The notes beneath the pieces were generated by a model. That model saw only the letters and a list, made by a program, of their open reading frames with translations, had not been told where the DNA came from and did no database searches. Positions 19,193 to 31,117 of a stretch of DNA of 64,000 bases are shown here, piece after piece (within the stretch, counting starts at the first letter, position 1; each line of letters starts with the position of its first letter). The stretch covers positions 392,391 to 456,390 of the forward strand of contig PMTM01000006.1 of NCBI GenBank assembly GCA_003167365.1, given 5' to 3'. The DNA is from Spartobacteria bacterium (GTDB taxonomy: Bacteria; Verrucomicrobiota; Verrucomicrobiia; Chthoniobacterales; UBA10450). The translations under genes were made by a program, and so were the position numbers.

Positions 19193-19260
19193 CGATAGTT
19201 GCCGTTTTTCGACCGGCGCAGCTTGTTGATTATCGCCAGATTCGCAATTAGGATTGGAGC

Positions 19261-19315
19261 GGCAATGGAGTTTGCCTTCCCGAGAGGAGAACCGCTTGAG
19301 CTAATGACTCCTACC
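19261..19315 (+). promoter_or_regulatory. Fluoride (crcB) riboswitch aptamer
   Basis: Matches the crcB motif. Hairpin P1 is GGCAA (19261-19265) with TTGCC (19272-19276) around loop TGGAGT. The loop can form the expected pseudoknot with ACTCC at 19307-19311. The conserved 3' segment reads AGCTAATGACTCCTACC. It lies directly before crcB and overlaps the 5' arm of a terminator. Fluoride binding is expected to stabilise the pseudoknot and let transcription continue. Confidence 0.88.
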
Positions 19316-19346
19316 AATGTCGAGAGACAACGGTTGGAGTTTTTTT
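19308..19346 (+). terminator. Riboswitch-controlled intrinsic terminator
   Basis: CTCC-t-ACC (19308-19315) can pair with GGT-t-GGAG (19332-19339), with an inner GTC/GAC stem around loop GAGA, followed by seven T residues (19340-19346). The 5' arm is the same CTCCTACC used by the aptamer pseudoknot, so the two folds exclude each other. The GGAG of the 3' arm is also the crcB ribosome-binding site, 7 nt before the ATG, so the hairpin could block translation too. Confidence 0.8.
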
Positions 19347-24040: not shown

Positions 24041-24117
24041 GTCTAACAAAGATTATGCCGCATTTCGCGGCCTAATTCCTTCAACCTTTCCATCTTCGCT
24101 GCATCGCGTGGTTAGGC
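24041..24117 (-). repeat. attC-like site 1
   Basis: Reads GTCTAAC ... GTTAGGC on the plus strand; on the minus strand GCCTAAC starts 17 bp after the DUF3303 stop codon. Inside is a perfect small hairpin GCCGC-atttc-GCGGC and the paired arms GATTATGC and GCATCGC, offset by one base as in true attC sites. Confidence 0.72.
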
Positions 24118-24501: not shown

Positions 24502-24622
24502 GCCTAACGCGGATTATGCCGCATTTCGCGGCCTGATTCTATTATGATCCGCTGACTACGCGTTTCATGATTCTTAATTTATCCTTCAGCCTTTTCATCG
24601 TTGCTGCATCGCTTGGTTAGGC
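24502..24622 (-). repeat. attC-like site 2
   Basis: Ends GCCTAAC (24502-24508) and GTTAGGC (24616-24622), 121 bp. On the minus strand the GCCTAAC supplies the TAA stop of the GNAT gene. It contains the same GCCGC-atttc-GCGGC hairpin as site 1, and a right half (TTAATTTATCCTTCAGCC) shared with site 4. Confidence 0.75.
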
Positions 24623-26234: not shown

Positions 26235-26295
26235 ATGTAGTCTGACGATACCAAGAGATCAGCGACTACAGCAGCGAGAAATGACGTTCGCATGC

Positions 26296-26349
26296 TCTTA
26301 ACACTAGGCATAAGGACAGTCCGCGGTTCGCTGCATCACATGGTTAGGC
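26296..26349 (-). repeat. attC-like site 5
   Basis: 54 bp, ends TCTTAAC and GTTAGGC. On the minus strand it reads GCCTAACCATGTGATGCAGC, then a GGAC-t-GTCC mini-hairpin, then TTATGCC and GTTAAGA: arms pair as an imperfect attC fold. Translating this site gives the peptide NHVMQRTADC, which explains that ending of a spurious minus-strand reading frame. Confidence 0.68.
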
Positions 26350-26881: not shown

Positions 26882-26940
26882 GCCTAACGAGGATTATGCC
26901 GCATTTTGCGGTCTAATTCTATTATAGATAGATGACTAAA
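26882..26940 (-). repeat. attC-like half site 6
   Basis: GCCTAACGAGGATTATGCCG with the GCCGC-attttGCGGt hairpin is nearly the same as the left arms of sites 1-3. The matching GTTAGGC arm is missing: the sequence runs instead into the terminator and methyltransferase remnant. Marks the break point where foreign DNA entered the array. Confidence 0.6.
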
Positions 26941-27179: not shown

Positions 27180-27340
27180 ATGCAACCGATTCGAAGCGAA
27201 ATTCGCCAAGGTGATTGCCTCGATGTCCTGGCCGACTTTGACGACGAGTCATTCGATTTGATCGTCACGTCCCCGCCCTATGCCTGCGCGTGTACGCGTA
27301 TGGCGGTGTGAAGCCGGATCCAGACAAACGAATACAATCA
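27180..27340 (+). pseudogene. DNA methyltransferase 5' remnant
   Basis: The first 35 codons read MQPIRSEIRQGDCLDVLADF then DESFDLIVTSPPYA, the start of an N4/N6-type DNA methyltransferase with its catalytic (S/D)PPY motif. A frame change after PPYA leads to TGA at 27311. In the +2 frame the family's next motif, YGGVKPD, is still visible at ~27297-27317. All the rest, including the SAM-binding FxGxG motif, is missing, and the nuclease gene starts at 27341. This is an R-M methylase deleted to a stub. Confidence 0.8.
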
Positions 27341-28276
27341 ATGAGCTACGAAGCTGCGATGCTCAAACAATTGGCCATGCCAACGCGCCAACAAGTCGGG
27401 GAAGCGCTGCTCCGAGCGTTACTAAAACATGGTGGAGTCGTTAAGGAGTTTGGTGCCGGTCAAGAAATCGTTATTGAATTAGCTGACGAATGCGAACTGA
27501 ATGACCTGCAGCGTTCAGCCTTCCTAGAAACAATATATCGAAAGGAGAATCGCTTAAAAAAATCAAACCTTTGGCATCGCTTGCTCTTTCGAGCGGCAGA
27601 TTCTCTTGCGAAAGAAAACCTAGTTACGCGCCCAACGCAGACCGTTCGACTCACTAACAAAAGAGAATGGATGTTAACCGAAAAGGGCCTCGATCAAGCG
27701 TTGGCACTCTGCAACATACCAGCTGCGGAAAAGGATGACTTATCTACCAAGTCTTATGAGGTTCAGAAGATCGTAAAGAAACTTTTGGAGGCCTCGACAC
27801 CAAACAATTATGACCCCTTTGATAGGAAGAAAACGTCCAAAAGCATAACCAGGGAATCTGTTTTGCGAACTCGTGGCTTTCGCCAAGCAGTTATCGAAGC
27901 TTACAGCCATAGATGTGCTGTGTGTGGACTGAAGGTCAAATCGCCGGATTTGATAACGTGGGAGGTGCAAGCCGCGCATATCGTTCCCAACGGTTTGCTT
28001 GGCCGAGACGATGTTTGCAACGGGGTCGCGTTGTGTCACCTCCATCATTGGGCGTTTGATGTCGGCTGGTTTACCCTAATGGATGACTACAAACTTCAAG
28101 TCTCACCAAAAATTCACAGCTTGCCGGCAGGAGTCGGGAAGATTGGTGACTACGAACTGTTCGGAGCGCTAGCAGCGAAACGTACTAAGATATCCTTGCC
28201 CGACAAACATGCGATCTACCCGCACCGGAATGCGATTGGTTGGCACCGCCAAAACGTTTTTCATTACGGTTCTTAG
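27341..28276 (+). CDS. HNH endonuclease, probable type II restriction enzyme
   Basis: 311 residues. N-terminal ~150 residues look like a winged-helix-rich DNA-binding part; the C-terminal HNH domain (about residues 188-260) has HRCAVCGLKV, QAAHIVPNG, and NGVALCHLHHWAFDVGWF, so the His-Asn-His and a CxxC/CxxH zinc site are intact. Position right behind a methyltransferase stub indicates the R gene of a restriction-modification pair. It is AT-rich against its surroundings. With its methylase gone, the nuclease must be silent, inactive, or covered by another methylase. Confidence 0.85.
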   Translation: MSYEAAMLKQLAMPTRQQVGEALLRALLKHGGVVKEFGAGQEIVIELADECELNDLQRSAFLETIYRKENRLKKSNLWHRLLFRAADSLAKENLVTRPTQTVRLTNKREWMLTEKGLDQALALCNIPAAEKDDLSTKSYEVQKIVKKLLEASTPNNYDPFDRKKTSKSITRESVLRTRGFRQAVIEAYSHRCAVCGLKVKSPDLITWEVQAAHIVPNGLLGRDDVCNGVALCHLHHWAFDVGWFTLMDDYKLQVSPKIHSLPAGVGKIGDYELFGALAAKRTKISLPDKHAIYPHRNAIGWHRQNVFHYGS

Positions 28277-28288
28277 GAGGAATTATGT

Positions 28289-28474
28289 ATGAAGTATCAC
28301 GGTAACAGAGTTATTTACTCTATAAATATAAGCGATGTTCAAGCGGTATCCGCTCGGACTCTCAAGCGCGCGCTGACGGATAACGAGATTGCTTTGGTTC
28401 ACGAATCAGTCGGCGATTTCATCGACTGGTTTCATGCTATCGAGAGCGCGATTCACAAACACGTCGGTCAATAA
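28289..28474 (+). CDS. Small hypothetical protein after the HNH gene (61 residues)
   Basis: Starts MKYHGNRVIYSINISDVQAV and contains ALTDNEIALVHESVGDFIDWFHAIE, a plausible small alpha/beta protein. A perfect AGGAGG site 8 nt before ATG 28289 settles the start; the ATG at 28285 is out of frame and short. It is in the same operon as the nuclease, 12 bp after its stop. The stretch after its stop is coding-like in another frame, so this may be the front half of a frameshifted gene. Confidence 0.6.
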   Translation: MKYHGNRVIYSINISDVQAVSARTLKRALTDNEIALVHESVGDFIDWFHAIESAIHKHVGQ

Positions 28475-28479
28475 GAATC

Positions 28480-28668
28480 GGATATAAGCAAATTTTACGA
28501 CCGATCGGGTATCGCGCAAAGGAACGGAACGAAGAATTCGCCGCCGAATACGCGAAGGTACTCAATCGCTTTACAGAACAGTTCATAACCGACTTCTGCG
28601 ATAAGGGCGGCTCAATTGATTGGGACAAGCTGTTGGCCTTTAATTCTGGACGAGCAACGCCGCGTTAA
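28480..28668 (+). pseudogene. Coding remnant after a frameshift
   Basis: Frame +1 relative to the 61-residue ORF reads GYKQILRPIGYRAKERNEEF and then AAEYAKVLNRFTEQFITDFC to a TAA at 28666, with clear codon structure but no start codon. It is either the 3' half of the preceding gene broken by an indel or a truncated gene from the R-M island. Confidence 0.5.
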
Positions 28669-28674
28669 AGGATT

Positions 28675-29070
28675 CTAGGCATCGTCGACCGCCACCGTTT
28701 CGACCCACTGTGCGCGCCAAGCAGGGGCGTTGAATGGGTCGGCAAAGTATTGGGTTTCATGCGACACTTTTCCATCCCGGAACTCCATCATGCTCACGGT
28801 ATAGACGCGCTTGCCTTCGTAGATAATCACGTACTCGGTGATCCAGAGATTGCCCTGGCCTACGATTCGGCGGACCGAAAACCCCGATGGCCTGCCCGGA
28901 TGATGACTGCGAAGCGCCTGCAGGTTACTCCGGCCGCGAATGACCTCGCCTGATTGTGGATACTCACACACGACGTCGTCGTGGTAGATTTGATGTTCGG
29001 CAACTTGATCACCCGCAGCAGACGCGGCCCAATGCCGATCAATGGCCATCCGAATGTTCTGCTCTTCCAT
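28675..29070 (-). CDS. SnoaL-like (NTF2-fold) protein
   Basis: 131 residues, cone-shaped NTF2-like fold. Features: MAIDRHWAASAAGDQVAEHQ, YHDDVVCEYPQSGEVIRGR, and WITEYVIIYEGKRVYTVSMM followed by EFRDGKVSHETQYFADPF, as in SnoaL/limonene-epoxide-hydrolase relatives. Reaction unknown. It resumes the cassette series after the R-M insertion and is followed upstream (to the right) by the best attC-like site. Confidence 0.85.
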   Translation of the reverse strand: MEEQNIRMAIDRHWAASAAGDQVAEHQIYHDDVVCEYPQSGEVIRGRSNLQALRSHHPGRPSGFSVRRIVGQGNLWITEYVIIYEGKRVYTVSMMEFRDGKVSHETQYFADPFNAPAWRAQWVETVAVDDA

Positions 29071-29078
29071 TAGCGGTC
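29039..29078. repeat. 40-bp direct repeat, copy A (SnoaL start)
   Basis: The first codons of the SnoaL-like gene and its leader. An exact copy lies at 30466-30505, 1.4 kb away, where it serves as the end of the second GNAT gene. Confidence 0.9.
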
Positions 29079-29148: not shown

Positions 29149-29271
29149 GCCTAACGAGAATAAGATGAGCAACCGCTGACGAGGGCGAGCTTTCTCATTT
29201 TCTTCTACTTTCTAATTTCACCTCCGTAATCTTATTTCCGGTCAGCGGTTCGCTCCATCGCATGGTTAGAC
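29149..29271 (-). repeat. attC-like site 7 (best conserved)
   Basis: 123 bp, ends GCCTAAC (29149-29155) and GTTAGAC (29265-29271). Arms GAGCAACCGCTGAC and GTCAGCGGTTCGCTC pair perfectly apart from one extra G on one side, the asymmetry expected of the extrahelical bases in a genuine attC. On the minus strand it overlaps the 3' end of the next gene, whose last residues (NHAMERTADRK) are encoded by the site. Confidence 0.8.
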
Positions 29272-29600: not shown

Positions 29601-29754
29601 GTCTAACTAGGATTAGACGAAATAAATTGGCCTAATTCGGTTATAGAAGAACGCGGGAGGAAACAGGGCATGTTCGAAGATTATCAATTCTTGTCGGCGA
29701 AGTAAATGTTCTGTAGCAGTTCGCTGTCCTGATTCGAGATGCTCTCTAGTTGGC
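29601..29754 (-). repeat. Degenerate attC-like site 8
   Basis: Left end GTCTAACTAGGATTAGACG; right end GTTGGC overlaps the CPBP stop region, with one base lost from GTTAGGC. About 115 bp of it (29601-29715) is an imperfect direct copy of 30997-31110. Confidence 0.55.
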
Positions 29755-30465: not shown

Positions 30466-30505
30466 TCAATGGCCATCCGAATGTTCTGCTCTTCCATTAG
30501 CGGTC
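30466..30505. repeat. 40-bp direct repeat, copy B
   Basis: Exact copy of 29039-29078 (start region of the SnoaL-like gene), now between CPBP and GNAT. The GNAT gene's last codon and TAA stop lie inside it, so the repeat marks a recombination joint within the array. Confidence 0.9.
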
Positions 30506-30996: not shown

Positions 30997-31110
30997 GCCT
31001 AACGAGGATTAGACGAAATAAATTTGCCGAATTCGGTTATAGGCGAACGAGGAAGGAAGCAGGATATGTCCGAAGATTATCGATTTTTGTCGGAGAAGTA
31101 AATGTTCTGT
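30997..31110 (-). repeat. Terminal attC-like half site 9
   Basis: Starts GCCTAACGAGGATTAGACG and is ~80-85% identical by eye to site 8 over ~115 bp, sharing AATGTTCTGTA at the end. The GTTAGGC arm is absent; a Pho-box-like promoter of the core genome follows at once. It marks the right border of the array. Confidence 0.55.
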
Positions 31111-31117
31111 AACGCGG

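Follow-up and report, generated by a model that had tools for sequence, protein, structure and literature searches.

Genes and remnants at the locus

The window, a 64,000-nucleotide stretch of contig PMTM01000006.1 from a Spartobacteria bacterium, carries an intact HNH nuclease gene that is flanked by remnants of a methyltransferase gene (M) and of a restriction endonuclease gene (R). The following features are present.

27180..27284, + strand: 5' stub of an N4/N6 DNA methyltransferase (M), residues 1-35 of ~290
27299..27319, + strand: out-of-frame continuation of M (YGGVKPD), residues ~41-47, where intact homologues read ...SPPYADQRKxTYGG...
27341..28276, + strand: HNH nuclease, 311 aa, with an N-terminal winged-helix-like domain and a C-terminal HNH_2 domain
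28289..28474, + strand: ~60-aa companion ORF conserved beside the HNH gene, coding for a predicted three-helix protein
28483..28650, + strand: C-terminal stub of an EcoO109I/PmeII-family restriction endonuclease (R), residues ~189-244 of 253

The M stub begins with an ATG at 27180 that opens MQPIRSEIRQGDCLDVLADFDDESFDLIVTSPPYA and ends with motif IV (TSPPYA) at 27284. Fourteen nucleotides without a match to M separate TSPPYA from YGGVKPD, and about 20 bases lie between the latter segment and the conserved start of the nuclease. The family is PF01555 and is PvuII-M-like, and Type II methyltransferase HMMs match the stub with E 2e-8. The nuclease frame is uninterrupted from the conserved start at 27341 (MSYE...) to 28276, and includes an HNH_2 domain (PF13391, E=1.4e-10); a mechanically assigned ORF start at 27290 falls within the M remnant.

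When scored against a profile derived solely from nuclease-free loci, with a background of 271 random windows, the M stub gives p=2.4e-18, and the R stub, scored in the same manner, gives p=6.5e-29. The R stub is also detected in a search with the plasmid enzyme (E ~3e-10) and in a full-length search (E 4e-15). Both remnants can thus be assigned to EcoO109I/PmeII-type Type II R-M families, and adjacent intact PF01555 and PF14511 genes are absent because both are stubs. An earlier note on this DNA had described the start of a methyltransferase, a loss of frame, YGGVKPD in another frame and then an intact HNH nuclease, all of which we confirm. The extent given there (27180-28276) is too short, since the small ORF and the R stub belong to the same locus.

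Surroundings of the locus

The window also carries sites that resemble attC, with GYCTAAC...GTTAGRC pairs and internal complementarity (24041-24117, 24502-24622, 26240-26349, 29149-29271, 29601-29715 and 30997-31111). These stand between small genes mostly on the minus strand, and the M-HNH-R unit has the opposite orientation. In the window's genome, no integron integrase scored as high as the curated cut-off, and the series looks like a cassette array without an integrase. As for a possible gene-cassette origin of the M-HNH-R unit, attC-like sites surround it, but no attC of its own was identified. Half of an attC-like site lies beside the unit at 26882-26925, as if interrupted by the unit or by a deletion. 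A perfect 40-bp direct repeat (29039-29078 and 30466-30505) is found 1.4 kb apart within the array, and a fluoride riboswitch is located at 19252-19320 (Rfam RF01734, 48 bits).

The restriction partner of M

On plasmids of Salmonella, Acinetobacter and Aeromonas, intact M genes of the stub's family precede a PmeII-family nuclease and not an HNH nuclease. This plasmid partner, annotated as PmeII family, corresponds to PF14511 (RE_EcoO109I, E 3.9e-73). The same family is present in 59 of 395 Bacteroidota genomes, and the loci retrieved from these are mostly adjacent M-R pairs without an HNH gene and are usually intact. Searched with the plasmid enzyme, the window and about a dozen relatives show a C-terminal R remnant close behind the HNH gene. 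Judging from these matches, the dead system consisted of M and an EcoO109I-type R; the HNH gene sits within it and is not the widowed partner of M.

R stubs also occur where the HNH gene is missing: beside a Dam-like methylase (L098:3989-4342), beside another putative R-M pair (L099:4013-4387) and alone (L097:3717-4028).

The HNH nuclease could instead be the cognate restriction enzyme of M, with the methylase lost by deletion in the window lineage. Although the adjacency, the shared strand and the upstream M stub are what this explanation predicts, M's cognate nuclease family is PF14511, whose stub sits downstream, and many relatives carry an intact HNH gene without M under purifying selection. 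We therefore consider it very improbable.

These results change how the locus is to be read. The earlier note had inferred a restriction nuclease left with a stub of its methyltransferase; M is indeed destroyed and the nuclease intact and maintained in relatives (dN/dS ~0.1), but the nuclease is not M's partner. The intact M-R pairs that it proposed to look for in relatives do exist, with an R of the PF14511 family in place of HNH. Its expectation that losing M before the HNH nuclease should be lethal falls away, because M's real partner is the EcoO109I/PmeII-type R whose stub lies downstream. Protection by another methylase is no longer needed as an explanation, although three further PF01555 methylases were found elsewhere in the window's genome. 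The suggestion of a recent deletion is contradicted by the occurrence of the same arrangement in many phyla.

The HNH nuclease and its small companion

The H, N, H and cysteine residues of the nuclease are invariant among 33 aligned relatives. Its predicted structure (pLDDT 87) has a winged-helix-like N-terminal half; Mrr_N matches to this part in relatives are weak (E ~0.015) and lie under the Pfam cut-off. The best fold matches of the HNH half are TagI and VcaM4I (Foldseek E 6.5e-5 and 3.8e-4), with EcoKMcrA and ScoMcrA lower among the matches. The fold and the PF13391 match together place the catalytic domain with those of the Type IV HNH enzymes. No SRA, SBD or EVE reader, nor any other reader of modified bases, was recognized in the N-terminal domain. 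We rejected an assignment to the phosphorothioate-dependent SBD-HNH enzymes (NF045808), because the score is 100 bits against a cut-off of 180, the match covers profile positions 104-283 only, and the N-terminal domain of that family is absent.

Values of dN/dS are 0.09-0.14 in most close pairs of relatives (0.29 for L012/L038), indicating that the HNH protein is maintained despite the dead M. The gene is evidently under purifying selection (dN/dS ~0.1). Ten of the 43 nuclease genes in our survey (described below) are broken or cut by contig ends. The nuclease may spare its host by cutting modified DNA, a possibility that we judge somewhat short of likely and that draws on the fold similarity and on survival without M. 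Modification dependence, as the earlier note had offered, is plausible from the matches to enzymes of the TagI, VcaM4I and McrA types, but a reader domain was not recognized. Alternatively, rare cutting sites might be how the host is spared.

An all-against-all comparison of flanking ORFs revealed that the ~60-aa ORF is located directly 3' of the HNH gene in 29 loci. Three helices are predicted for its product (pLDDT 92), and neither family searches nor comparison with PDB and other folds gave a significant match. The conserved pairing suggests that the HNH gene and the ~60-aa ORF are a two-gene module that occupies a dead M-R locus, wherein the small protein might regulate or restrain the nuclease.

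Remnants flank the nuclease in many phyla

A scan of bacterial genomes yielded 42 HNH relatives from many phyla with ~49-69% identity, and 43 loci were compared. Remnants were counted with the profiles from nuclease-free loci, set against the 271 random windows, combined with full-length searches. Of the 43 loci, 26 have an M stub, an R stub or both beside the HNH gene; these loci come from many phyla, and the stubs differ in their end points. In many relatives an M-family gene directly upstream reaches up to the nuclease and breaks off at a residue that differs between loci. The M remnants are between ~15 and ~256 residues long, and almost all retain the start of M (one exception is L043); the R remnants keep the C-terminus. 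In all flanked loci, the position and orientation of M and R relative to the HNH gene are constant. No remnant was found in ~17 of the 43 loci, some of which end at contig ends. Two of four newly sampled loci (L116 and L128) have remnants and two (L129 and L131) have none; L128 carries M residues 1-52 in front of the nuclease and the last 15 R residues behind it, on a contig of at least 4.19 Mb.

The window's genome is a draft of 24 contigs, which might invite the view that the layout is an assembly error or sequencing artefact, the outcome that the earlier note named as refuting its reading. However, the window's contig is at least 697 kb long, and the same layout recurs with other end points in independent genomes, including the long L128 contig. 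We give this explanation almost no credence.

The HNH gene is scarce, being present in 6 of 395 and 1 of 399 genomes. No intact M adjoining the HNH gene was found among the loci examined, and in 40 HNH-bearing genomes no intact M of the stub's family was found, the closest being 42% identical. This fits mutual exclusion of HNH and M, in a sample too small to claim it. The epigenetic conflict described for PcaRCI and PcaRCII indicates why an active methylase might be incompatible with a modification-dependent enzyme in one cell (PMC8989522).

The HNH gene is also found in the interval between gatA and gatB (gene names by our reading of the sequences) in Burkholderiales (L026:4837-6167, L027:4406-6075 and L028:4902-5928). 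Both gatA and gatB look complete at these sites, and L027 has an extra small gene between gatA and the HNH gene. Because the HNH copy from Accumulibacter (L028) is not sister to the Comamonadaceae copies (L026 and L027), the data suggest at least two entries at gatA/gatB.

Evidence for repeated entry

The M sequences that flank HNH genes are not monophyletic (AU p=0.0025), requiring nine changes of which at least four are forced by supported branches, and neither are the R sequences (AU p=4.5e-10; seven changes, at least five forced), in tests that are weakened by the long branches of decaying flanks. Between L031 and the HNH-free locus L081, M identity is 92%. The M sequences of L007 and L031 are 89% identical whereas their HNH proteins share 59%, and over all pairs the correlation between M and HNH identity is 0.16. 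The polyphyly of both flanks argues that takeover was repeated, and by these comparisons the module took over EcoO109I-type M-R loci several separate times.

A different history would begin with a single ancestral insertion that created a four-gene unit (M, HNH gene, small ORF and R), which spread horizontally; M and R would then each have decayed on their own, and recombination between the unit and resident M-R loci would have reshuffled the flanks. The identical gene order and orientation everywhere would be expected from such a unit, as would the similar junction repeat in L007, L031 and L039. L002, L003 and L006 also speak for it, as their M stubs differ in length (37, 204 and ~195 residues), yet their HNH proteins (84-88% identical) and spacer sequences are related. 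Indeed, erosion after insertion is certain, and a single event may therefore underlie some of the differing end points. However, neither flank forms one clade, M and HNH identities are barely correlated, an intact M beside the HNH gene was not found, and the HNH gene is present at gatA/gatB too. We regard a single insertion as distinctly unlikely.

Another explanation is that the M-R locus is a replacement hotspot for defence genes, where the module is one of several arrivals by ordinary recombination and its own nuclease has no targeting role. L098 and L099 carry other modification genes beside R stubs of the EcoO109I-type family, a second methyltransferase lies directly downstream in L002, and L027 has the extra gene between gatA and HNH. 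A hotspot does not predict that the module should stand at a constant place and in a constant direction with respect to M and R in every flanked locus, nor that so rare a gene (see genome counts above) should have remnants of one R-M family at 26 of 43 loci. This leaves the explanation rather unlikely, though less so than a single insertion.

Two unrelated methylases share a preceding N-terminal segment, KKRIDLTxKKYxxVKSKVxEQ (in L116 upstream of the M stub, and at L099:1576-1640), which suggests domain swapping at M starts.

A proposed route into the M/R junction

At intact loci, R starts within the 3' end of M or just after it, so that the two genes overlap or nearly abut. M is preserved as far as codon 256 in L007, 222 in L022 and 205 in L116, and R resumes in these loci at codon ~8-16 without its original start. 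L024 has its R-side break at codon ~8-16 as well, but its M stub is shorter, at 73 codons, and R later lost an internal part. In the least eroded insertions, the end of M and the start codon of R are thereby both missing. Neither target-site duplications nor defined module ends were identified, nor was cleavage of a target. A search for gene conversion at the junction returned only a repeat common to L007, L031 and L039, which is not conclusive. This palindromic repeat (GGGCTTTCCGCTACTATCCCTAACGC-like) is located between the M stub and the HNH gene (L007:4940-4990, L031:2220-2300 and L039:4900-4985), and further diverged copies are found in the L007 genome.

The explanation that we consider probable is that the HNH gene and the ~60-aa ORF are an independent module, which has invaded EcoO109I/PmeII-type loci repeatedly at the junction of M and R. 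Because the ORFs overlap or nearly abut, entry would remove the M 3' end and the R start codon in one step. M and R would die together, and thus the usual lethality of losing M first would not arise. The module would keep the 5' end of M, and probably the M promoter, as a leader, and the dead remainder of M and R would erode to variable stubs. The window appears as a strongly eroded example. Within this explanation, the layout, its recurrence, flank polyphyly and nuclease conservation are demonstrated at the level of sequence.

How the module moves is less certain. The same site is occupied repeatedly and the phylogeny of the element is decoupled from that of its flanks, as is typical of homing; the preserved function of the host gene, another hallmark of homing, is absent at the R-M loci, where M and R are destroyed. 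Because repeated site preference and flank decoupling are what homing produces, the module might pass from one M-R locus to another through homing-like, homology-directed replacement, which the nuclease itself may initiate by cutting, a proposal that stops a little short of being likely. More tentatively still, the module could be a homing-type parasite specialized on addictive R-M systems, for which a single junction event would disarm post-segregational killing and install a methylase-independent nuclease. No HNH relatives were found in viral contigs, and no plasmid match covered at least 80% of the query.

R-M systems are thought to be hard to lose, since losing M first kills the cell. Our comparisons across many phyla point to a recurrent route around this addiction, in which a foreign nuclease module inserts at the meeting point of M and R and eliminates the two together. 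If true, this would be a natural mechanism of R-M loss and would add a nuclease and partner module to the repertoire of defence and selfish genes. It also warns that a dead methylase need not have been the partner of the intact nuclease next to it.

Comparison with known systems

In the part of the literature covered, we found no description of a nuclease and small-protein module at the M/R junction of EcoO109I-type loci. Several known systems share some of its features.

Intact nucleases near corrupted methyltransferase genes have been catalogued as solitary restriction endonucleases (PMC3488263). The window likewise has an intact nuclease beside a methylase pseudogene, but its nuclease is not cognate and the cognate R is also a stub. 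Some of the published solitary enzymes may be worth re-reading in this light.

EcoO109I/PmeII-type Type II R-M systems (M of PF01555 and R of PF14511) belong to the same families as the window stubs and occur as intact pairs in plasmids and Bacteroidota, whereas the window has only dead stubs of the two genes, separated by a foreign module.

The Type IV HNH enzymes TagI, VcaM4I, EcoKMcrA, ScoMcrA and PcaRCII (PMC8989522, PMC7461809) have in common with the window nuclease the HNH fold, a putative N-terminal DNA-binding part followed by a C-terminal HNH domain, and the lack of a cognate methylase. The window nuclease differs in having no recognized SRA, SBD or EVE reader, in its conserved small companion ORF, and in an activity that is so far putative.

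The ShiLan element is an out-of-frame homing HNH gene inside a phage DNA methylase (PMC11855218). This element and free-standing homing endonucleases resemble the module in that an HNH gene resides in a methylase locus, the distribution is patchy and the flanks do not track the nuclease. In contrast, the host system is destroyed in the present case, and the module, which includes a second small gene, sits where M and R meet in bacterial R-M loci.
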